NCBI GenBank assembly: GCA_030680835.1
Contig: JAUXUD010000057.1
Coordinates: 1-64,000, forward strand
Direction: 5' to 3'
Length of the DNA stretch: 64,000 nt
Source: Bacteroidota bacterium
GTDB taxonomy: Bacteria; Bacteroidota; Bacteroidia; UKL13-3
This document shows, one piece after another, positions 21,336 through 32,845 of the stretch; within the stretch, counting starts at the first letter, position 1, and every line of letters begins with the position of its first letter. The position numbers and the translations under genes were made by a program. The notes under the pieces were generated by a model, which saw nothing but the letters and a program-made list of their open reading frames with translations, was not told the origin of the DNA and did no database searches.

Positions 21336-22751
21336 TTAATGCGTATTCTTAAAAACGGGACCATTGAATTTTGATTGCATGGATTCAATTAAAATACCAT
21401 TACTGTATACTTCCAAGGTTACAGGTGTTGAATTTTTCCTGATTTCTTTCGGATCAACATTTAAAAAGAAAGAGGTTTTACCGATACTTTCCTTGTGCAC
21501 AATAATTTTTTCTCCGTCAATAATTTTAATATCGCCTTTTGGTTCAATTAATTTTAATTCAACAGGCAAATCCTTAAATGTTTTATTTACAAACTCAATA
21601 CTATACATGTTGCTTATTTTACCATCCTGTTGTTTCTGATAAAGCATTCCGGGTGTACGCAACATGGTTGTTTCAATCAGTTTACGTGTAACCAACAGGT
21701 ATACAAACACACCGAACAAAGCTGCCAATACAATTGTATACGCAACATTTCTTGCATTTAATCCCATTTTTGCCCCTTCGGTAATGCCATTTAAAGATGC
21801 AAAGCGTATCAATCCCTTTGGCTTTTCAATTTTTACCATTACTTCATCACATGCATCAATACATGCAGTACAGTTCACACATTCCAGTTGGGTTCCGTTT
21901 CTGATATCAATTCCCGTAGGACAAACATTCACACATAATTTGCAATCAACACAATCCCCGTTATTTGTTATCACGTCTTTTTTTAATTTACCTCTGGGCT
22001 CACCCCTTACAAAATCATAGGCAACCACCAGTGAATTTTTATCGAGCATTAATCCTTGCAAACGGCCATAAGGACAAATAAAAACGCAAACCAATTCGCG
22101 CATTCGGGCATAAACAAAATAAAAAACGCTTGTAAAAATAGCCAGTGAAATAAACTTACCCAAATGAGCCACCGGTCCATCTCTAACCAATAATTTCAAT
22201 TCGTCAACTCCTATTATATATGATAAGAATGTGTTGGCAATTACAAATGACAGAATCCAGAAAAGTATGTGTTTGCTTGTTTTCTTAAGTATTTTTTGTC
22301 CGGTCCATTCCTGCTCATCAAGCTTTATTTGCTGATGGGCATCTCCTTCAATAAAATATTCAATTCTTCTGAAAAGCATTTCCATAAATATGGTTTGCGG
22401 GCATGCCCAGCCACACCAAACTCTGCCAAATAATACGGTAAACAATACAATAAACAATATAAAAGAGAGCATCAGAAGGGCAAAGAGATTTAAATCCTGA
22501 GGCCAAAATACCATTCCAAAAATGATGAATTTCCGTTCCAGTATATTTAATAAAAGCAGAGGTCTGTCATTAAGTTTCATGTAAGGACCTGCAAACATCA
22601 ATACCATTAATATCCAGCTGAACCAGATGCGGTAATTATAAAATTTTCCTTTGGGTTTTTTAGGATAAATCCAGAGTCTTGAACCTTTGTGATCAACATT
22701 AGAGAGTTCATCTCTAAAATGTTCATTGTCTAATGGATGTGCACTACTCAT
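21336..22751 (-). CDS. ccoG: CcoG, cbb3 oxidase accessory iron-sulfur protein
   Basis: The 471-aa membrane protein has about five hydrophobic segments, the WCGWACPQTIFMEMLFRRIE motif, CVFICPYGRLQ, and two ferredoxin-type 4Fe-4S motifs (CVDCKLCVNVCPTGID and CVNCTACIDACDEV). The C-terminal ~120 residues form the periplasmic Ig-like domain of the family. CcoG is implicated in reducing copper during cbb3 maturation. It follows ccoP after an 85-base gap that contains a large hairpin. Confidence 0.96.
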   Translation of the reverse strand: MSSAHPLDNEHFRDELSNVDHKGSRLWIYPKKPKGKFYNYRIWFSWILMVLMFAGPYMKLNDRPLLLLNILERKFIIFGMVFWPQDLNLFALLMLSFILFIVLFTVLFGRVWCGWACPQTIFMEMLFRRIEYFIEGDAHQQIKLDEQEWTGQKILKKTSKHILFWILSFVIANTFLSYIIGVDELKLLVRDGPVAHLGKFISLAIFTSVFYFVYARMRELVCVFICPYGRLQGLMLDKNSLVVAYDFVRGEPRGKLKKDVITNNGDCVDCKLCVNVCPTGIDIRNGTQLECVNCTACIDACDEVMVKIEKPKGLIRFASLNGITEGAKMGLNARNVAYTIVLAALFGVFVYLLVTRKLIETTMLRTPGMLYQKQQDGKISNMYSIEFVNKTFKDLPVELKLIEPKGDIKIIDGEKIIVHKESIGKTSFFLNVDPKEIRKNSTPVTLEVYSNGILIESMQSKFNGPVFKNTH

Positions 22752-22836: not shown

Positions 22837-23727
22837 CTATTGGTTTAATGCAGTTGATTTTGCAACTACCAAAGTATCAACAGGAGGTTTAACAGTTATA
22901 CTATCTTCCTTAAACAATATCCCTTGTGGTTCCTTGGCATTTGGCGGGTTGGTTCCTCTCAGACTTTTGATAAACGAAGCCAGTTGCTGAATCTGCAATC
23001 CACTCAAAGAATTTTGCCACGGAATCATACCCTTTGCCGGAACCCCATATTTAATGGTTTTGAAAATCGATTTCACATCACCACCATGCAACCAGTAGTC
23101 GTCGGTAAAATTCGGCCCCAAACCAATTTTACCTTCACCTTTTTCACCATGACAAACCATACATTTTTCCTTAAAATTTTTGGCACCTGTTTCGATTGCT
23201 TTTGCATCCTTTAACAAAACAACAGAATTTTCATCAATAAGATTTCCTGCTTTTTTCAAATAGGCTTCTACTGCAATTTTAGATGCGGATACATCACTTG
23301 TATATTCCGCCTCCTGTAGTTTGCCAAATTTTAATACATGGTAATTTAACATATATATTACAGCGGCGAGAATGCTGGTATAAAAAATAAAATTAAACCA
23401 TGGCGGCGGAGGATTATCCAGCTCAGAAATGCCATCATAATCTTCTTCGATTGTTAATTCTTCTTCTGTCTTTTCTGATTTGAGTGCTGCAAATTTATCC
23501 CACCAGGTAATGGTTGATTTTTGATCATTGCCTGAGCGTAATTTTTTTACAGCTGAAGTAAGTACAAATAACAATACTACTACAAACAACAGTAAAAGTG
23601 CATTTATAAAAATCAGAATATTTGTAACTCCGTATCCCGGATTTTGTGAGTCTATACTTGTATTTTGGGCAAAAAGAGAACCCGAAATCAATACAAGAGC
23701 CAATAATATAACTATTTTTTGTTTCAT
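22837..23727 (-). CDS. ccoP: CcoP, cbb3 oxidase cytochrome c subunit with one heme site
   Basis: The 296-aa protein begins with a signal-peptide-like segment (LISGSLFAQ) and two membrane helices (~25-60 and ~110-128), with a DNPPPPWFNFIFY stretch before the second as in CcoP. Only one heme c site is present, CMVCH near residue 188, with GLGPNFTDDYW and axial Met region GMIPW; classic proteobacterial CcoP has two. It delivers electrons to CcoO/CcoN. It begins 14 bases after ccoQ. Confidence 0.94.
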   Translation of the reverse strand: MKQKIVILLALVLISGSLFAQNTSIDSQNPGYGVTNILIFINALLLLFVVVLLFVLTSAVKKLRSGNDQKSTITWWDKFAALKSEKTEEELTIEEDYDGISELDNPPPPWFNFIFYTSILAAVIYMLNYHVLKFGKLQEAEYTSDVSASKIAVEAYLKKAGNLIDENSVVLLKDAKAIETGAKNFKEKCMVCHGEKGEGKIGLGPNFTDDYWLHGGDVKSIFKTIKYGVPAKGMIPWQNSLSGLQIQQLASFIKSLRGTNPPNAKEPQGILFKEDSITVKPPVDTLVVAKSTALNQ

Positions 23728-23741
23728 TTTTTTATTTCTTT

Positions 23742-23903
23742 TTAGTTTTCAAACGGCTTGTTTTTCATGTCTTCTATATAAGCTTTGTCGGCTTTAAATA
23801 ACCACCAGATAATACCAAGAAAAAAAACGATAAATACGAGCATTGAAAAAATCAGATACCCGCTCTGAATTCCCGGTATATTTTGAATATGCTGTTTAAA
23901 CAT
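23742..23903 (-). CDS. ccoQ: CcoQ-like small subunit of cbb3 oxidase
   Basis: This 53-aa gene was found by direct translation between ccoNO and ccoP. The product starts MFKQHIQNIPGI, has one membrane helix (~16-37, LIFSMLVFIVFFLGIIWWLF) and a charged cytoplasmic tail ending KNKPFEN. Size, single helix, Trp pair at the helix end, and position (4 bases after ccoNO, 14 before ccoP) match CcoQ/FixQ, which stabilises the oxidase complex. Confidence 0.85.
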   Translation of the reverse strand: MFKQHIQNIPGIQSGYLIFSMLVFIVFFLGIIWWLFKADKAYIEDMKNKPFEN

Positions 23904-23907
23904 GTGG

Positions 23908-26031
23908 TTAATTTTTAGTTGATAATTTAATGTCAGTTCCCATTCTTTGGAGATAAGCGATCAGTGCAATAATTTCTTCATCTCCTTCAACCGGATATCC
24001 TTCTTTTGTGAGTTTGATTCCAATTCCTTTTGCCTGAGCCACCAAATCGGCCTCTGCCAAATCCTCAAATCCTTTCGGATAAGGTACACCCAGTGTTTTC
24101 ATCGCAACAATTTTATCCCGTGTATTGCTGATATCCAGTTTATTTTCAATTAACCATTTATAGGAAGGCATAATTGAACCGGGCGACATTAAGCCGGGTT
24201 CCATCATGTGATTGTAATGCCAGCTATCCGGATATTTCCCGCCAATCCGCATCAGGTCGGGACCGGTTCGCTTTGAACCCCATAAAAAAGGATGGTCATA
24301 AACAAATTCACCGGCTTTTGAATATTCACCGTATCTTTCTGTTTCACTTCTAAAAGGCCTGATCATTTGTGAATGACAGTTTACACAACCTTCCCTGATA
24401 TAAATATCTCTTCCCTGCAACTCAAGCGGAGTATAAGGTTTTACACTGGTAATGGTAGGTATATTTGATTTAATGGTAAGCAAGGGAACAATCTCCACAA
24501 TGCCGCCAATTAATATAACCACAATGGTAAGTACCATAAAAGTTAATGGTTTGCGTTCAAATGCCTTATGCCAGTATTTATGTGCTCCATGTGCAACATA
24601 ATTATTTTCGAGCGGGGGTGCTTCGGCAGCCTCATTGGCAATTAATTTACCGGCACCTGCTGTCTTCATCAGGTTGTATATTAACAAAAATATTCCGCTC
24701 AGGTATAAGGTTCCACCAATTGAACGCATGATATACATAGGAATGATCTGCAAGGTTGTTTCTAAAAAGTTTGGATACTTTAACATCCCTTCAGGTAAAA
24801 ACTCTTTCCACATCATACCCTGTGTAAAACCACTCCAGTACATTGGAATGGAATAAAATAAAATTCCCAGCGTAGCAATCCAGAAATGGGTATTTGCCAG
24901 GGATTTTGAATGCAATTTAACTCCGTAAATTTTAGGAACCAGCCAATAAAACATACCAAAAGTAAATAAACCATTCCAGCCCAGGGCACCCACATGAACG
25001 TGAGCAACAATCCAGTCGGTAAAGTGCGCAATGGCATTTACATTTTTTAACGAAAGCATAGGCCCTTCAAATGTTGCCATACCATAGGCAGTAACTGCAA
25101 CTGCAAAAAATTTCAGTACAGGTTCATCTCTTACCTTATCCCAGGCTCCCCTGAGTGTTAACAAACCATTTATCATTCCACCCCATGATGGTGCAATTAA
25201 CATAATAGAAAAAACCACACCCAGTGATTGTGCCCAGTTTGGCAGCGATGTATATAACAAATGATGAGGTCCTGCCCATATATACAAAAATATTAAAGTC
25301 CAAAAATGAACAATAGAAAGCTTATAAGAATAAACAGGCCGGTTGGCAGCTTTTGGCAAGAAATAATACATCATACCCAGATAGGGAGTGGTTAAGAAAA
25401 AAGCAACGGCATTATGACCGTACCACCACTGAACCAGCGCATCCTGAACACCGGCGTATAACATATAACTTTTAAACAGGCTCACCGGCAATTCAAATGA
25501 ATTTACAATATGCAATATTGCAACCGTAACAAATGTTGCGATGTAAAACCAGATTGCCACATACATATGTCGTTCACGGCGTTTGATAATGGTTCCAAAC
25601 ATATTTACACCGAATGCTACCCAAATCAATGCAATAGCAATATCAATCGGCCATTCAAGTTCGGCATATTCATGTGAAGTTGTTAAACCTAAAGGCAGTG
25701 TAACTGCTGCGGCCAATATGATTAACTGCCATCCCCAAAAGTGAATATTACTTAGTAAATCACTATATAATCTTGCTTTACAAAGTCGCTGAAGGGAATA
25801 ATAAACACCTGCAAAAATTGCATTTCCAACAAAAGCAAAAATTACAGCATTGGTGTGGAGGGGCCTGATTCTTCCGAAGGTAGTATAGGGTAAATTAAAG
25901 TTAAAAGCAGGGTAGTATAATTGAATGGCTGCAATTACACCTACCAGCATTCCAATAACTCCAAACACTACGGATGCAATGATAAAGTTTCGGACAATCC
26001 GGTTGTCGTAGTTAAATTGTTCGATTTGCAT
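23908..26031 (-). CDS. ccoN: CcoNO fusion, catalytic and monoheme subunits of cbb3 cytochrome oxidase
   Basis: A 707-aa fusion. Residues ~1-470 are CcoN, with about twelve membrane helices and heme/copper ligands in RPLHTNAVIF, WWYGHNAVAFF, AGPHHLLY and AHVHVGALGW. Residues ~490-707 are CcoO: a membrane anchor, then GRDIYIREGCVNCHSQMIRP (one heme c) and RTGPDLMRIGGKYPD. Separate genes are the rule in Proteobacteria; fused forms are known in Bacteroidota. The enzyme reduces oxygen with high affinity and pumps protons. It heads the operon ccoNO-Q-P-G-H-SafE; an FNR-like site lies 80 bases upstream and the inferred transcription start is about 23 bases before the ATG. Confidence 0.97.
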   Translation of the reverse strand: MQIEQFNYDNRIVRNFIIASVVFGVIGMLVGVIAAIQLYYPAFNFNLPYTTFGRIRPLHTNAVIFAFVGNAIFAGVYYSLQRLCKARLYSDLLSNIHFWGWQLIILAAAVTLPLGLTTSHEYAELEWPIDIAIALIWVAFGVNMFGTIIKRRERHMYVAIWFYIATFVTVAILHIVNSFELPVSLFKSYMLYAGVQDALVQWWYGHNAVAFFLTTPYLGMMYYFLPKAANRPVYSYKLSIVHFWTLIFLYIWAGPHHLLYTSLPNWAQSLGVVFSIMLIAPSWGGMINGLLTLRGAWDKVRDEPVLKFFAVAVTAYGMATFEGPMLSLKNVNAIAHFTDWIVAHVHVGALGWNGLFTFGMFYWLVPKIYGVKLHSKSLANTHFWIATLGILFYSIPMYWSGFTQGMMWKEFLPEGMLKYPNFLETTLQIIPMYIMRSIGGTLYLSGIFLLIYNLMKTAGAGKLIANEAAEAPPLENNYVAHGAHKYWHKAFERKPLTFMVLTIVVILIGGIVEIVPLLTIKSNIPTITSVKPYTPLELQGRDIYIREGCVNCHSQMIRPFRSETERYGEYSKAGEFVYDHPFLWGSKRTGPDLMRIGGKYPDSWHYNHMMEPGLMSPGSIMPSYKWLIENKLDISNTRDKIVAMKTLGVPYPKGFEDLAEADLVAQAKGIGIKLTKEGYPVEGDEEIIALIAYLQRMGTDIKLSTKN

Positions 26032-26057: not shown

Positions 26058-26065
26058 CAAAAATA
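26058..26065 (-). promoter_or_regulatory. Bacteroidota -7 element of the ccoNO promoter
   Basis: On the minus strand this is TATTTTTG, a perfect TAnnTTTG. It predicts transcription starting near 26054, a 23-base leader before ccoNO. The -33 region (around 26087) is poor, as expected for an activator-dependent promoter. Confidence 0.6.
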
Positions 26066-26081: not shown

Positions 26082-26110
26082 CAGAAAAATGATATTTTAC
26101 AGCTCGGAAA

Positions 26111-26124
26111 TTGATATACGTCAA
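26111..26124. promoter_or_regulatory. FNR/DNR-type binding site upstream of ccoNO
   Basis: TTGATATACGTCAA matches the FNR-family consensus TTGAT-N4-ATCAA with one change, and exactly matches the DNR/NNR form TTGAT-N4-GTCAA. Its centre (26117.5) is about 63 bases upstream of the predicted ccoNO start, a class I activator position. It also lies 89 bases before the divergent T9SS gene. The likely binding protein is the FNR-like regulator encoded at 30622-31332. Confidence 0.7.
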
Positions 26125-26212: not shown

Positions 26213-27004
26213 ATGAATATCCGATTTGTTTTGTTGTTTTTCTCTGTGAGCGCTTTAATGAATCAAAGTGTAAATGCTGCTTTAACTGTAGAATCGAAAA
26301 ATCTCGTAGTGGACTCAGCCAACAATGCAGTGAATGTCACTTTTGGACCCTTTGTATCTCCCTTTTTCACTTTTAACTACTTTCCCAACGGTGCATTTTC
26401 CATCACAGGTAAACTTTCATCAGAGTTTAACAGTACGCTGGCTACAAAATCGGTTGGCGGGGTAAACTATACTCCTGTTAAAATATACAACAACAAAACT
26501 TTTGATAAATTAACAGTTTGGCAAAAACAACCTATATTTTTTCACAATCCGGTTTTAGGTTTTACAAGCGATTTTTTAGGCAAAGGCAATCAATACATTG
26601 GAGCCAAAGCCATTTTGTCAAATAGCGATATACTCTATTTCTGGATGCTTGTTAATCTGGACGCCGGCGGTAAAAAGTTAACGATTCTTAAACTGGGTTT
26701 CGAAGATGTTCCCGGTAACCCGGCATTAACCGGAAACGAAGGGGAAAACGCAGCAGGTATTTCAGAATTGTTTTTGCCTGATTTGAATATTTTCCCGCAA
26801 CCCGCTAAAAACATATTGACTCTTGACCTGGGTTCCGATGTGCAGGTTGCTTACCATATTTACAATTTAAACGGTCAATTGGTTCAAAAAGGAGATGCAT
26901 TTATCAGAAAAGAAATTGTTGTTTCTGAAATGGAAAAGGGGATTTATTTACTTGTTCTGACGAATGATCATGCACTTTTAATCCGAAAAATAATTATAGA
27001 GTAA
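26213..27004 (+). CDS. Secreted protein with T9SS C-terminal sorting domain, inside the cbb3 locus
   Basis: The 263-aa protein has a signal peptide (to about VNAA), an unrecognised ~165-residue mature domain, and a type A T9SS sorting domain at the C-terminus (~190-263) showing LNIFPQPAKNILTL, YNLNGQLVQKG and MEKGIYLLVL, ending with a basic strand. It should be exported by the Sec pathway and then secreted or attached to the surface. It is transcribed away from ccoNO, shares with it the intergenic FNR-like site, and converges on ccoS. Function unknown; a link to low-oxygen conditions is only positional. Confidence 0.85.
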   Translation: MNIRFVLLFFSVSALMNQSVNAALTVESKNLVVDSANNAVNVTFGPFVSPFFTFNYFPNGAFSITGKLSSEFNSTLATKSVGGVNYTPVKIYNNKTFDKLTVWQKQPIFFHNPVLGFTSDFLGKGNQYIGAKAILSNSDILYFWMLVNLDAGGKKLTILKLGFEDVPGNPALTGNEGENAAGISELFLPDLNIFPQPAKNILTLDLGSDVQVAYHIYNLNGQLVQKGDAFIRKEIVVSEMEKGIYLLVLTNDHALLIRKIIIE

Positions 27005-27033: not shown

Positions 27034-27207
27034 TTATTGATTGTCCTTTTTGGATTCGTCCGTTGTTGGGTTGTCTTCAAACAATATTCTTACTCCCGGG
27101 GTATAGTCGTCATCCATCTGCCCTGATTTTACAGACCAGATAAATGCAGCGAGAAAACCCAAAGCCAGAGTGAGGCTGCATCCTATAAGTAAATACATTA
27201 TCTGCAT
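27034..27207 (-). CDS. ccoS: CcoS, cbb3 oxidase maturation protein
   Basis: This 57-aa gene was found by direct translation downstream of ccoI. It begins MQIMYLLIGCSLTLALGFLA and continues with FIWSVKSGQMDDDYTPGVR and ILFEDN. The single helix followed by the W-x-x-x-SGQ-x-DD-x-x-TP-x-x-RIL pattern is diagnostic of CcoS, needed for cofactor insertion into cbb3 oxidase. It starts 11 bases after ccoI stops, so it is cotranscribed with it, and converges on the T9SS gene 29 bases away. Confidence 0.93.
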   Translation of the reverse strand: MQIMYLLIGCSLTLALGFLAAFIWSVKSGQMDDDYTPGVRILFEDNPTTDESKKDNQ

Positions 27208-27218
27208 GGTTATACCAA

Positions 27219-29639
27219 CTATATAATTTTATTTTTAATTGCATACAAATACGTTGCCGCAGTTGTAAACAAAATAACACTGATACTGCTCAAAGGCATT
27301 AAAATTGCAGCCATTACCGGAGATAATACACCTTTAACGGCAAAACTTAAACCAATCACATTATACAAAAGCGAAATTACAAAACTTATCCGGATTACCT
27401 TAACCGTATCTTTGGCATAATTAAAAAAATCGGGTAATTTTTCAAATACTGCTGCATCCATAATCACATCACTTGCCGGCGAAAAATGTGCAGTATTCTC
27501 AGTAACACAAATTCCCAGATCAGCAACTTTCAGCGCTCCGGCATCATTTAATCCATCTCCAATCATTGCTACTTTAAATCCATTCAACTTTTGCGTATCA
27601 ATAAACAACATTTTATCAGCCGGAGACTGATTAAACAACATTTCACCTGTTTCCGGGAAAAACTGTTTCAAATTGCTTCTTTCTGCATCCCGGTCGCCTG
27701 AGAGTAAACTCAATTTCCGGTTTATACCCATTTTGTGCAGTACAGGTTTCAATCCATCCCGATAGGCATGTTTGATACAAAAATTGCCGATTGTTTTATT
27801 GTTATAACTCAGATAAACATAACTAAGCAATAAATCCGCCTCGGGTTTTAAATACATGCCGTCAATAAATACATGCGAACCAGCCCTAAGTGAAATCCCG
27901 TTTACAATTCCCTCTATTCCCCTTCCGGTGATTTCCTTAAAGTCGTGAACCGAAATCTTTTTTAGGGAGTCTGATCCTAAAAAATTTGCAATTTTTTTGC
28001 TTAATGGATGCACAGAGTTGGAACACAAACTATAAAACTCAAGCTTTTGCTGCGTGCTTAATTCGGCTCCCTCGTAATAAATTGTTGAGCCTGCCGCCTG
28101 GGTAATAGTGCCTGTTTTATCAAAAACAACCGAATCAATCTTTGCCATGTGTTCTATATATCCAGGCGATTTTAGATAGAACTTACTTCGGCTCAGCATG
28201 CGCAAACTATTTCCCAAAGCAAACGGACTGGACAATGCCAGCGCACAGGGACATGCAATTATTAATACTGCGGTGAACGCATTGGAACTTAAGGAAGGAT
28301 CTTTGATGAACCAATATAAAGCTGCTGTAAAAGCAATACATAGGAGTACAATCGTAAAATATTTACTTACTACAGACTGAAATGTTTTTATACTGCTTTT
28401 GTTCTCCTTGGCAAAATGTTCGCTGTTCCATAATTGGGTAAGATAACTTTGAGAAACCGATTTGCTCACTTCCAACTCCAGGGTTCCGCCCACCTGCCTG
28501 CCTCCAGCGTATATGATTTCCCCAAAGACTTTCGATACAGGAAGACTTTCGCCTGTTACAAAACTAAAATCAATCAATGCTTCTCCACCCAGCAAAATGG
28601 AGTCTGCCGGTATTATTTCATTGTTGTGGATGATAATCCGATCTCCTATTTTTAATTTGGTAACGGGTAACGTAGTCTCTAAATTATCTTTTAACACAGA
28701 AACTGCTACCGGGAAATACGATTTGTAATCGCGTTCAAATGATAGCGTTTCAAAAGTTCTGTTTTGAACCCATTTTCCAATCAACAAAAAAAACACAAGG
28801 CCGGCAAGGGTATCAAAAAATCCGATTCCCGTGTGTGAAATTACCTCATAACTGCTCCGTACAAACATTACCAGGATGCCCAATGCAAGTGGAAAATCTA
28901 TATTGATAACTCCTTTGCGCAGACTTTTAAAAGCAGCTATAAAATAGTCGCGGGCACTGTATAAAAACACAGGCAATGCCAATGCCATATTAAGGAAGCC
29001 GAAAATGCGGGAGAATGACTGCTGCGAAAAACGATCCAGCCCAAAATATTCAGGAAAGCTAATGAGCATGATGTTTCCAAAACAAAAACCAGCCACACCA
29101 ATCTGGTATAAAAGCCTCCTTCCATTATCCTTTCTTTTTGCTTCATCCAGATTGCTCAGGTTCAGGGCCGGTTCATAACCCAGTGAAGAAAGCATTTCCA
29201 CCAGCTTGCGAAGACTCAGTTTGTGGTGATCGAAAGAAACAGATAATTGCTTCTTTAAAAAATCAACCCGGTTAAATAATATGCCCTTTTCGAGTTTATA
29301 TAAACTTTCAAGTAACCAGATACAACTGCTACAATGCATGGAGGGTATATGAAAAGTAACTTTCGAAATTTTTTCATCCCTGTAATCAATTAATTGCTTT
29401 TGAATCTGTTCATCGTCGAGGTAATTAAATTTCACCCTGGAAACCGGATTTTTCAGACTCAGCCCCGGATTTGAATCAAGCGTATAATAATCACATAAAT
29501 TATTATCTGCCAAAATCTCATAAACACCCCTGCACCCGGTGCAGCAAAAATGTTTATTATCAAAATTTATTGGAAAATTACCGGCATGATCTCCGCAGTG
29601 GTAACATTTAATTCCTGCAATTACCTTTTTGTTCGGCAT
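27219..29639 (-). CDS. ccoI: CcoI/FixI-type copper-exporting P1B ATPase
   Basis: The 806-aa ATPase moves copper across the inner membrane for cbb3 assembly. Order of features: an N-terminal Cys cluster (CYHCGDH...CCTGCRGVYEIL) typical of the CcoI/FixI group, an HMA domain with MHCSSCIWLLE (~95-103), eight predicted helices, the CPC ion site (~463-465, ACPCALAL), the phosphorylated Asp in DKTGTIT (~507) and hinge GDGLNDAGAL. It starts six bases after the upstream universal stress gene and is followed by ccoS. Confidence 0.96.
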   Translation of the reverse strand: MPNKKVIAGIKCYHCGDHAGNFPINFDNKHFCCTGCRGVYEILADNNLCDYYTLDSNPGLSLKNPVSRVKFNYLDDEQIQKQLIDYRDEKISKVTFHIPSMHCSSCIWLLESLYKLEKGILFNRVDFLKKQLSVSFDHHKLSLRKLVEMLSSLGYEPALNLSNLDEAKRKDNGRRLLYQIGVAGFCFGNIMLISFPEYFGLDRFSQQSFSRIFGFLNMALALPVFLYSARDYFIAAFKSLRKGVINIDFPLALGILVMFVRSSYEVISHTGIGFFDTLAGLVFFLLIGKWVQNRTFETLSFERDYKSYFPVAVSVLKDNLETTLPVTKLKIGDRIIIHNNEIIPADSILLGGEALIDFSFVTGESLPVSKVFGEIIYAGGRQVGGTLELEVSKSVSQSYLTQLWNSEHFAKENKSSIKTFQSVVSKYFTIVLLCIAFTAALYWFIKDPSLSSNAFTAVLIIACPCALALSSPFALGNSLRMLSRSKFYLKSPGYIEHMAKIDSVVFDKTGTITQAAGSTIYYEGAELSTQQKLEFYSLCSNSVHPLSKKIANFLGSDSLKKISVHDFKEITGRGIEGIVNGISLRAGSHVFIDGMYLKPEADLLLSYVYLSYNNKTIGNFCIKHAYRDGLKPVLHKMGINRKLSLLSGDRDAERSNLKQFFPETGEMLFNQSPADKMLFIDTQKLNGFKVAMIGDGLNDAGALKVADLGICVTENTAHFSPASDVIMDAAVFEKLPDFFNYAKDTVKVIRISFVISLLYNVIGLSFAVKGVLSPVMAAILMPLSSISVILFTTAATYLYAIKNKII

Positions 29640-29645
29640 CCGGTA

Positions 29646-30470
29646 CTATCCTAAGAATATAGAACGTTTGCCATCCATAAAAAATGAATTGTTCTTGTTA
29701 AAAATAAGATCTTCAATTATTTCATTCCTGTTAACACCGGTTACCAGAAGAAAAGAACTGAAATCTCTTAAAAGTACCAGCAAATCTGAGAAATAATTTT
29801 CGGGGTAAACCCGGTTAATTGCAAAATGCTGTTTATAGTTTTTAAGATAATTGATAATGTTTTTTTCCTGCGAATTGGAATTTTCTGTAACCACAATATT
29901 CAAAATTACATTGCAGTTATCCATTTGGTCGGCCATTAAATACATAAACAGTTTAATTGCCTCAAACGAACGGTTGCTGCCATCATACAAGAGTATAATA
30001 TTTAGAAATTCTACCTGTTCACATGATAAAAGTAAAATCGGGCATTTGGTATTTCTTAATACAGTTTCAATGGAATAAAAGGATTGTTTGTTTATGTTTT
30101 CCTTTTTAAAAATATCTTTTCCAATTACAAACAAATCATTGTACTGACTTTCATTTACCAAATCTTCATTCAATTCAATACCCGATAAATATACCTTTGT
30201 TTTTAAAGATAACTCTTCGCATTTATGTACAAATCTTTCAATAAATTCATTGCTGTTATGAAGGTTTGTATGCAGTATTTTTTCTATTATTTCTGAACGT
30301 GTATACTGTGAATTCAAAAATTCGGGACTGTCAAAAACCTGGTTTAAATTACCTGTACTTATTCCTTCAACAAAAGCACCGTTAAAGCGGTCCTGACTGT
30401 TGTGAAAAATCTTAATCGAACAATCCAATAAACGTTCCGAATAATCCGAACCGTCCATCAATATCAACAT
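29646..30470 (-). CDS. Universal stress protein family, tandem-domain type
   Basis: A protein of about 274 aa with two UspA-like halves: the first opens MLILMDGSDYSERLLDCSI, the second has NIILLYDGSNRSFEAIKLF near its start. I choose ATG 30470, not the ATG at 30506 twelve codons earlier, because UspA domains begin at the ILxxxDGS strand and because the predicted transcription start (~30504) falls after the earlier ATG. Usp proteins often bind ATP and are induced under low oxygen or stasis. It heads the operon usp-ccoI-ccoS with six bases to ccoI, behind an FNR-like site. Confidence 0.78.
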   Translation of the reverse strand: MLILMDGSDYSERLLDCSIKIFHNSQDRFNGAFVEGISTGNLNQVFDSPEFLNSQYTRSEIIEKILHTNLHNSNEFIERFVHKCEELSLKTKVYLSGIELNEDLVNESQYNDLFVIGKDIFKKENINKQSFYSIETVLRNTKCPILLLSCEQVEFLNIILLYDGSNRSFEAIKLFMYLMADQMDNCNVILNIVVTENSNSQEKNIINYLKNYKQHFAINRVYPENYFSDLLVLLRDFSSFLLVTGVNRNEIIEDLIFNKNNSFFMDGKRSIFLG

Positions 30471-30507
30471 ATGTCTAACCACCTTTTGAAAAGTTTTTAT
30501 AGTCATA

Positions 30508-30515
30508 CAAAGCTA
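30508..30515 (-). promoter_or_regulatory. Bacteroidota -7 element of the usp-ccoI-ccoS promoter
   Basis: On the minus strand this reads TAGCTTTG, a perfect TAnnTTTG. The implied start near 30504 leaves a leader of about 34 bases before ATG 30470. Its spacing to the upstream palindrome nearly equals that at ccoNO. Confidence 0.58.
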
Positions 30516-30558
30516 TCTTTAAATTAATTTTAAAACATGACCATACTCATTGGCTCAG

Positions 30559-30572
30559 ATGACTTTTGTCAT
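30559..30572. promoter_or_regulatory. FNR-type palindrome upstream of usp-ccoI-ccoS
   Basis: ATGACTTTTGTCAT is a perfect 5-bp inverted repeat around TTTT. It shares the TGAy-N4-GTCA core with the ccoNO site. Its centre (30565.5) lies about 62 bases upstream of the predicted start, the classic class I position. The FNR-like regulator gene ends 50 bases further upstream. Confidence 0.65.
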
Positions 30573-30621: not shown

Positions 30622-31332
30622 TTATACGGATGCGTGTGATATTTTTTCGAGTGCTTTTCTGTCCAGAATTCTTATCTTTTTGCCTTCCATATCAATGATT
30701 TTATCATTCTTAAATTCCGACAAAAGTCTGATTACAGTTTCTGTTGCAGTACCAACTATATTGGCAATGTCTTCTCTGGGCAATGTTACCGAAATTAATG
30801 CGATATCTATATCTCCGTTATTCAGAAATGTTTGCTGTAAAAACAATAAGGTTTCGGCCAAACGTTCCCGCACACTTTTTTGAGCGAGACTTTGAATTCT
30901 TTCATCCGCCAGACCCAAATCGTGACAAAGCGCCTTGAGCATATATTTATTCAGACCTGAATTATTTTCAAGTACTTCCATAAAAATATTTCTGGGAACA
31001 AAACAACAAATGGTATCCTCGATACAGGTTGCAGTGGCAACCAATGGCTCATCAGCTATTAAAGCACGATACCCTAAAAACTCACCATCACGTGCAAAAC
31101 GAATTATTTGCTCTTTGCCATCTTTATTTGAGCGGGTTAATTTAATTGCACCTTTACTAATACAATATATACCCAGAGGTATATTGTCTTCATAAAAAAT
31201 TGATTGCCCTTTTTTATAGTGACTGCATGATTTGCCCTGACTTACTTTTTCGCACTCCTCTTCTGTGCAGTATGATAAAAAAGAAATGCTCTTGGCATCA
31301 CAATGTTGGCATTCAAGGTGTATTTTTTGCAT
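30622..31332 (-). CDS. Crp/Fnr-family transcriptional regulator
   Basis: The protein is 236 aa from ATG 31332 (MQKIHLECQHC); the frame continues to 31425 but would overlap the M61 gene by 44 bases. The N-terminus is Cys-rich (Cys8, 11, 22, 27, 36), followed by a cyclic-nucleotide-type beta roll (GIYCISKGAIKL, EFLGYRALI) with further Cys in CIEDTICCF. The helix-turn-helix (~175-200) has TATETVIRLL, keeping the Glu and Arg of FNR's E..SR recognition contact. An oxygen-labile cluster is plausible but not proven. It lies between the M61 gene and the usp-ccoI-ccoS operon and probably controls both cbb3 operons. Confidence 0.9.
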   Translation of the reverse strand: MQKIHLECQHCDAKSISFLSYCTEEECEKVSQGKSCSHYKKGQSIFYEDNIPLGIYCISKGAIKLTRSNKDGKEQIIRFARDGEFLGYRALIADEPLVATATCIEDTICCFVPRNIFMEVLENNSGLNKYMLKALCHDLGLADERIQSLAQKSVRERLAETLLFLQQTFLNNGDIDIALISVTLPREDIANIVGTATETVIRLLSEFKNDKIIDMEGKKIRILDRKALEKISHASV

Positions 31333-31381
31333 TTTTGAGTTCTTTATTTCGGAGCCGATTCTAAAAATTTCTGCGAAACTA

Positions 31382-32845
31382 TTATAATCCACCCCATATT
31401 TCAAATAAGTATTGCTGAGCATCATTTATATTGCTCATTTTCAGTAGTTTCACATTTTGTTCGCCTTCTGAATTTTCTTCAAATATATAGGTTAACCCAA
31501 TATCCTCCAGTACCCGTTTCAAATACTTTTCAATATTTCCACTTCCATCAATCACTTCTTCAAAATAGGTATCAAACGAGATTCGGCCTGTTTGCTCTAA
31601 AAAAGTTTTGTAAAGCTCTTTGGTATATCCAATTCCCTTTTTAAATGTTTCTTCATATAAAAGCTTCATTGCCTGGTCAAGACGTGCATTGCCGTTTGTT
31701 GCTTTCAGTAACATGATATCCGCTATCAGAGCTGCCAGCATCCCTTCCATATAAATTGAAACCTTTCGGCCTTTCACCCCAGGTACATATCCATCCAGCC
31801 AGGTATCAAAACTTGATTGTGCCACCGAATAATTAAAACGTCCGGGATTGTCAAAATGTTTTTGCAGCACTTTGTTAAAGCTCAATTGGTATTGCGAAAA
31901 GTTCCAAACCCTGCTCCGTAACAAAATCAAATCGCCATAATATGTGGTAACTCCTTCATAAATATAACCAAGTTCAGAATAATTTTCTTTGCTGAAGTCA
32001 TAGGGAAGCATCTCTGCCGGCCTGATTCTTTTAACATTCCAGAGATGGAAAAGTTCATGGGAGCTGATTGCCAGAATATCATTGTAAAATGCATGATTTC
32101 CCCATTCTGTATCCGGTCCCATTGCAATTACAGTTGAATCGGTATGCTCCACTCCATGCCTGAACTGAAAAGGCAGAATGAGATATAAAAAATGAAATTC
32201 CCTGCAGGGTAAGTCTCCAAAAATTTCTTTCTGAACCTTAATGTAAGAGCTGGTATCTGAAATTAACTGATTCATATCCGGGCAAGGTACACCCTGAAAC
32301 CAAAAGTGAATTCGGGTCTCATCTACTTGAAAAGTATTTTGGGTTAAGCTTGCACTTGCCACAAAAGGACTGTCGGCCAGTTGATCGAAGTTCTGGGCAT
32401 AAAGTAATTTATCCTTTGCGGGCAACTGGCATGCAATTTTATAGGATGAAGGAATATCCAATTCCACAACAATGCTTTCACCCATCCTATCAACTACATA
32501 CATCAGGCAATTAACCGGATTCACATACAATTGCTGCTCATCAACAAAACTTGCCCCGGCATCATATTGGTTTGCATAGTACTCATATTGAACCAAAATT
32601 TCATTCTGACCCTCAGAAAATACCTTCCATCGGTCTTTTGTAATTTTTTTAAATAAAATATTTTCGCCTTTATTATTCTTAACAGAGAACAGGCGAATAT
32701 TTTTTGCATAGTTGGCAAGCTCATATCTGCCGGGTCTCCAGGCCGGTAACTGGAGCTCAAGGGTTGCCTTCAATTCGTTTTTTATCAGCCATTCAACACC
32801 AATAAAATGTTCGGCAGGGTTTGAAATAAAAATTTTGTAGTGCAT
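31382..32845 (-). CDS. M61 family (glycyl aminopeptidase-like) metallopeptidase
   Basis: The protein is 487 aa from ATG 32845 (MHYKIFISNP). It has the N-terminal beta domain of M61 (EWLIKNELKATLELQLPAW), then the zinc site SSHELFHLWNVKRIRP (~262) with the gluzincin Glu in YIYEGVTTYYGDL. Most M61 proteins are about 600 aa and end in a PDZ domain; this one stops shortly after the catalytic domain, so PDZ is missing. No signal peptide is visible, which suggests a cytoplasmic enzyme. It is divergent from a small membrane protein gene with 13 bases between ATGs. Confidence 0.9.
   Translation of the reverse strand: MHYKIFISNPAEHFIGVEWLIKNELKATLELQLPAWRPGRYELANYAKNIRLFSVKNNKGENILFKKITKDRWKVFSEGQNEILVQYEYYANQYDAGASFVDEQQLYVNPVNCLMYVVDRMGESIVVELDIPSSYKIACQLPAKDKLLYAQNFDQLADSPFVASASLTQNTFQVDETRIHFWFQGVPCPDMNQLISDTSSYIKVQKEIFGDLPCREFHFLYLILPFQFRHGVEHTDSTVIAMGPDTEWGNHAFYNDILAISSHELFHLWNVKRIRPAEMLPYDFSKENYSELGYIYEGVTTYYGDLILLRSRVWNFSQYQLSFNKVLQKHFDNPGRFNYSVAQSSFDTWLDGYVPGVKGRKVSIYMEGMLAALIADIMLLKATNGNARLDQAMKLLYEETFKKGIGYTKELYKTFLEQTGRISFDTYFEEVIDGSGNIEKYLKRVLEDIGLTYIFEENSEGEQNVKLLKMSNINDAQQYLFEIWGGL

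Follow-up and report, generated by a model that had tools for sequence, protein, structure and literature searches.

Control of cbb3 oxidase (ccoN/fixN) operons by FNR-family proteins (Anr/FnrL) is classical in Proteobacteria, and stress genes are also among the targets of these regulators. The locus described here resembles the class I/II systems of FNR (E. coli, A. fischeri) in the Crp/Fnr fold of its regulator, in boxes of the TTGAY-N4-RTCAA type, in activator positions near -41.5 or -61.5, and in having cbb3 and stress genes as targets, but differs from them in carrying two boxes 22 bp apart at a strict distance from the Bacteroidota -7 element, and in a regulator that lacks C29 of FNR and has a new invariant cysteine (C57). 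The rhizobial FixLJ-FixK2 system offers a second parallel, in that a Crp/Fnr protein is likewise proposed for low-oxygen control of cbb3 and a PAS kinase and a receiver output are encoded in a second gene island of the same genome (contig C38, below); however, the receiver and CRP domains are fused here, the cbb3 locus itself carries the gene for the FNR-like protein, and a heme-PAS is not evident. The HcpR/DNR proteins are also FNR-like and, in the part of the 2005 survey by Rodionov considered here, use TTGAC-N4-GTCAA or TTGAT-N4-ATCAA boxes; in that same part, the Bacteroides HcpR2 motif before hcp is GTAAC-N4-GTTAC, unlike the boxes of this locus, tandem sites concern NorR, and cbb3 is unmentioned (PMC1274295). 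Finally, two-site promoters are known for CRP, and class III (synergistic) promoters such as acsP2 also engage more than one activator dimer (PMC5449483); unlike in these promoters, the spacing reported here is nearly invariant over many genera and genes, and looks like a standing promoter grammar, not a single case.

The window, i.e., the whole stretch of 64,000 nucleotides analysed (contig C30 of the source genome assembly, G000), carries on its minus strand, in this order, genes for a Crp/Fnr regulator and a Usp-like protein, ccoI, ccoS and, beyond one gene of the opposite strand, ccoNO, ccoQ, ccoP and ccoG (Table 1). The intervening gene, a Por secretion-tail gene at 26213-27004, looks like an insertion since ccoS runs straight into the ccoNO promoter in several relatives. 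The preliminary description of this DNA had placed a site with matching spacing at the head of both cbb3 operons and the regulator gene 50 bases away, and all of its sequence statements hold on a coordinate check. The sites are of the Crp/Fnr type with nearly equal spacing, and the regulator gene ends at 30622. That is, the usp site ATGACTTTTGTCAT (30559-30572, read on the + strand) contains the core TGACTTTTGTCA with its centre at 30565.5, which lies 57.5 bases from the final G of the -7 element, and the ccoNO site TTGATATACGTCAA (26111-26124) has its core centre at 26117.5, at 59.5 bases from the end of its own -7 element; the two sites share TGAy-N4-GTCA, and both elements read TAnnTTTG, the Bacteroidota sigmaA -7 sequence, as do those of relatives.

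Table 1. Features of the cbb3 locus in the window (positions on the 64,000-nucleotide stretch).
Feature	Position	Strand	Remarks
Crp/Fnr-family regulator	30622..31425	-	likely start 31332 (MQKIHLECQHC)
Distal FNR-type box, usp promoter, TGACAAAAGTCA	30560..30571	-	centre ~ -62.5; kept in relatives
Proximal box, usp promoter, TGAGTATGGTCA	30538..30549	-	centre ~ -40.5; TTGAGTTnGGTCAT in relatives
-7 element TAGCTTTG, usp-ccoI-ccoS	30508..30515	-	consensus and -12..-5 placement from PMC9723704
Tandem Usp-like protein	29646..30506	-	likely start 30470 (ATG) or 30482 (GTG)
ccoI, heavy-metal P-type ATPase (copper, cbb3 assembly)	27219..29639	-	
ccoS (FixS)	27034..27207	-	
Distal box, ccoNO promoter, TGACGTATATCA inside TTGACGTATATCAA	26112..26123	-	centre ~ -64.5
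Proximal box, ccoNO promoter, TGTAAAATATCA	26090..26101	-	one core mismatch; centre ~ -42.5
-7 element TATTTTTG, ccoNO operon	26058..26065	-	sequence match, also in relatives
ccoNO fusion, cbb3 oxidase subunits I/II	23908..26031	-	
ccoQ	23742..23903	-	FixQ match, under curated cut-off
ccoP	22837..23727	-	
ccoG	21336..22751	-	

Only one site per promoter had been described, and that site is real, but a second, weaker TGA-N6-TCA-like box, overlooked in both promoters, lies exactly 22 bp gene-ward of it. The ccoNO pair consists of a strong distal box and a proximal one of which mainly the GTCAT half is preserved. According to data from Flavobacterium psychrophilum, TAnnTTTG spans -12 to -5 (PMC9723704), so that transcription would be expected to start near 30503 (usp) and 26053 (ccoNO), and on this placement the two members of each pair fall at about -41, near the class II activator position, and at about -63; the ccoNO sequence TTGACGTATATCAA is a TTGAY-N4-RTCAA-like palindrome, the type expected near -41.5 and/or -61.5 in class I/II promoters. 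Our reading, to which we assign a probability of roughly 0.74, is that the site first described forms the distal member of a tandem FNR-type operator that switches on usp-ccoI-ccoS and ccoNO when oxygen is scarce, with the adjacent FNR-like regulator as its likeliest binder. Under this model, a Crp/Fnr dimer would occupy each of the two abutting boxes, whose 22-bp spacing puts them on nearly one face of the helix, about -41 and -63 in a Bacteroidota sigmaA promoter; scarce oxygen would then turn on usp-ccoI-ccoS, and the ccoNO operon through its own copy of the element. The sequences directly show the boxes, their spacing and placement with respect to TAnnTTTG, their conservation in genus, family and class, the synteny, and the conserved cysteines and recognition helix of the regulator; that the boxes are bound, that they activate and do not repress, that oxygen is the signal and which paralogue acts are inferred. 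An inverted repeat 50 bp past the stop codon of the regulator gene could also be a repressor operator or part of that gene's transcription terminator, not an activator site, yet the stem is short and A+T-rich with no T run after it, and the palindrome is found again at ccoNO and at many further promoters, where it takes the activator positions (about -41 and -63) and leaves the -7 element and the start uncovered, which makes such a role very improbable. The terminator version in particular was rejected because there is no T run and the same palindrome stands at unrelated promoters.

How strongly chance can be dismissed depends on what is counted. The 12-mer TGAYNNNNRTCA alone is not rare, with nine occurrences in the window against 4.35 expected, a count reached by 8 of 100 shuffles; single boxes are common, and the argument from the window alone, on which the earlier claim that chance was unlikely had rested, is weak. 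Genome scans with single boxes were likewise abandoned, as they returned too many chance matches, and good separation from controls was obtained only for tandem or box-plus-promoter forms. Scored against the composite grammar (a box pair with 22-bp spacing, and TAnnTTTG), usp reaches 21/22 and ccoNO 20/22, levels that neither spacer reached in any of 20,000 Markov simulations, a result that is supportive and not independent, for the grammar was derived from relatives and these same sites. What upholds the earlier claim is conservation in relatives (below), which we regard as decisive against chance: the composite recurs across 34 genera while reversed controls give zero, and a coincidental match of the two sites within the window, which the abundance of single boxes might have suggested, is refuted by these comparative data to the point that we give it next to no weight.

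In the usp promoters of 13 relatives from the same family, both boxes are kept at 59.5 and 37.5 bp from TAnnTTTG (e.g., TGACTTAAATCA-N10-TGAGTTAGGTCA), whereas the other promoter sequence varies; the 57.5 of the window, correctly measured and set against 59.5 at ccoNO in the preliminary description, thus reflects a promoter 2 bp shorter that is peculiar to the source genome. Across 73 ccoNO loci (63 Bacteroidota and 10 not assigned to Bacteroidota), a strict box occurs within 300 bp in 50, compared with a mean of 1.7 and a maximum of 7 in shuffles. The distance from box to TAnnTTTG at these loci is 59 (15 cases) or 37 (12 cases), with any other value seen at most twice, the preferred offset of a second box is 22, and the correct geometry is present in 24 of the 73 vs. 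0.01 in shuffles. When slightly relaxed -7 elements are allowed, 27 of the 63 Bacteroidota loci show this geometry, and none of the 10 loci not assigned to the phylum (Ignavibacteria-like, Calditrichota, Neomarinimicrobiota and one unassigned MAG) does. Within the genus (19 genomes), the 112 box pairs listed include 76 with a spacing of exactly 22 bp, the next-best spacing accounting for four. At the class level (119 genomes), the exact composite has 92 occurrences, spread over 46 genomes from 34 genera, and the reversed-pattern control gave no match; freeing the gap added 23 composites, so that 92 of 115 have 22 bp, 12 have 23 bp and six have 33 bp.

A few variations on this layout were also observed. 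The six composites with the 33-bp spacing (G131, G169, G051, G150, G147 and G139) correspond to one further helical turn. At loci L146-L154, from genus g5 of the family, the strong box stands 81.5 from TAnnTTTG and a weak one 37.5, a separation of 44 bp or two 22-bp steps, which suggests a three-step 22-bp array. In several cbb3 operons of the family, a box directly before ccoNO was not found. A conserved palindrome, CGGAT-N6-ATCCG or a close variant, stands between a proximal box and the -7 element in several members of the genus (G014:C19:14579-14621, G003:C9:673484, G013:C164:5772 and G000:C92:27924) and adjoins an Rrf2-like gene in G013; it is possibly a second (Rrf2-type) operator that would provide dual control.

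The boxes are not confined to the cbb3 operons. In a sample of 30 members of the class, ccoS/ccoNO are the commonest downstream genes (about eight, those at ccoS by inspection), followed by DoxX (three); Hsp20, COX2, alcohol dehydrogenase and an HGD-D protein, similar to one that is boxed in G000, occur once each. Genes found after the pairs within the genus encode CBS-domain proteins and c-type cytochromes or belong to a nos region (named by inspection). Contig C38 of the source genome holds at least nine tandem 22-bp pairs within a 20-kb stretch (in the region 14001-36000; L254, L255), whose genes encode two Usp, Hsp20, a phosphoribosyltransferase, BON, an L,D-transpeptidase, DNA polymerase X, a PAS histidine kinase and a receiver-CRP fusion, a content that resembles a dormancy-like stress cluster. 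Since genes for Usp, Hsp20, phosphoribosyltransferase and cytochrome c, among others, are preceded by double boxes in the genus and class, the regulon is broader than the small one first envisaged, and from its gene content looks like a low-oxygen and dormancy response. For reference, cbb3 is strongly induced under oxygen limitation in F. psychrophilum (PMC9723704).

The adjacent regulator has Pfam cNMP_binding and HTH_Crp_2 domains, with the sensor domain, dimer helix and helix-turn-helix of the Crp/Fnr family, and its fold matches that of A. fischeri FNR (TM ~0.85); its score against the NCBIfam Fnr model PRK11161 is 88.2 bits, below the cut-off of 228. Counting from the start at 31332, C8, C11, C57 and C110 are invariant or nearly so among 48 homologues. 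In the alignment, C8, C11 and C110 correspond to C20, C23 and C122 of FNR, so that three of its four ligands (C20, C23, C29, C122) are conserved, an equivalent of C29 is absent, and C57, nearly invariant, is new with respect to FNR. The protein is therefore a probable iron-sulphur sensor of oxygen or redox state whose ligand set differs from that of FNR. Its recognition helix reads TETVIR where FNR has VETISR, i.e., the E and R of E209-x2-S212-R213 are present and S is replaced by I. Among homologues with S at this position, the flanking boxes are GTGA...TCAC (9 of 12 half-sites), and among those with I the corresponding base is mostly A or C (52 of 60 half-sites); this association between helix residue and operator flank (Fisher p 1.5e-6, with the S group being essentially one lineage) fits direct binding by the flanking protein. 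A strict box before the regulator gene itself was not found in the window's box list, and autoregulation was set aside as a candidate on that ground. An imperfect inverted repeat, TGAGCATCATTTATATTGCTCA (31427-31448), lies inside the end of an M61 peptidase gene, before the likely start of the regulator.

Which protein reads the boxes is a more delicate matter than the location of a Crp/Fnr gene next door, taken in the preliminary description to identify the binder, would imply. The adjacent FNR-like regulator does appear the likeliest binder, but the source genome has at least five Crp/Fnr-family genes (five matches) and encodes both this protein and the receiver-CRP fusion on C38, and the fusion flanks boxes of the same geometry elsewhere. 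It may share the boxes with the adjacent regulator or, alternatively, be their main reader, in a phosphorelay with the PAS histidine kinase of C38. The tandem boxes are dense around the fusion and kinase genes, the fusion adjoins cbb3, in place of the FNR-like protein, in other lineages of the phylum (Pedobacter-type loci; Pedobacter, Mucilaginibacter, Dyadobacter and others), and a perfect double box is kept at the cbb3 locus of genome G033, where the best match to the regulator is no more than fusion-like. Nonetheless, in the genus of the window the FNR-like gene often abuts the usp operator directly, with both boxes kept, and regulators of the cysteine type flank cbb3 in flavobacteria and others where no fusion was found nearby, and we consider it unlikely that the fusion is the principal reader and retain the adjacent FNR-like regulator in that role. 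A bolder possibility, which we advance tentatively and with doubt, is that Bacteroidota have a phylum-specific grammar for low-oxygen genes, in which two dimers at once bind an abutting FNR-type pair with a 22-bp spacing and a locked distance to the -7 element, and that the operator has changed hands between a receiver-CRP phosphorelay fusion and an FNR-like protein with four cysteines and a shifted ligand set, the DNA code outliving its reader.

The first gene of the usp operon also needed a second look. The first ATG of its open reading frame (30504-30506) coincides with the expected transcription start; the true translation start is predicted to be one of the two given in Table 1, and the leader that holds them has a conserved counterpart in relatives. 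Earlier called a universal stress protein, the product is a Usp by predicted fold, only a remote one of the tandem type: it has no match to Pfam Usp (PF00582), which its ortholog L179 reaches only at E 0.024, and a PDB sequence search was negative, while a profile built from its orthologues gives a weak match to a canonical Usp (E 0.0019), and its predicted model, of modest quality (pLDDT 62), has as best PDB match the tandem Usp 3ab8 (E 4e-6, TM only 0.43). The label "Usp-like" is fair.

In the open-access papers searched, we found no description of a 22-bp tandem grammar, of tandem FNR sites or of a Bacteroidota FNR/cbb3 regulon, which is weak evidence of novelty; a 2021 study predicted carbon sensing for Crp/Fnr homologues of this kind from Ignavibacteria, Flavobacteriales and Saprospiraceae (PMC8510549). 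Our results suggest a shared low-oxygen gene switch in Bacteroidota that is apparently undescribed. How most members of the phylum sense a fall in oxygen and switch to the cbb3 oxidase has apparently been little charted, and a fixed, searchable composite operator would give direct access to this regulon across many genera, with two candidate sensors named. It also makes it possible to ask how an operator persists while the regulator that reads it is exchanged.
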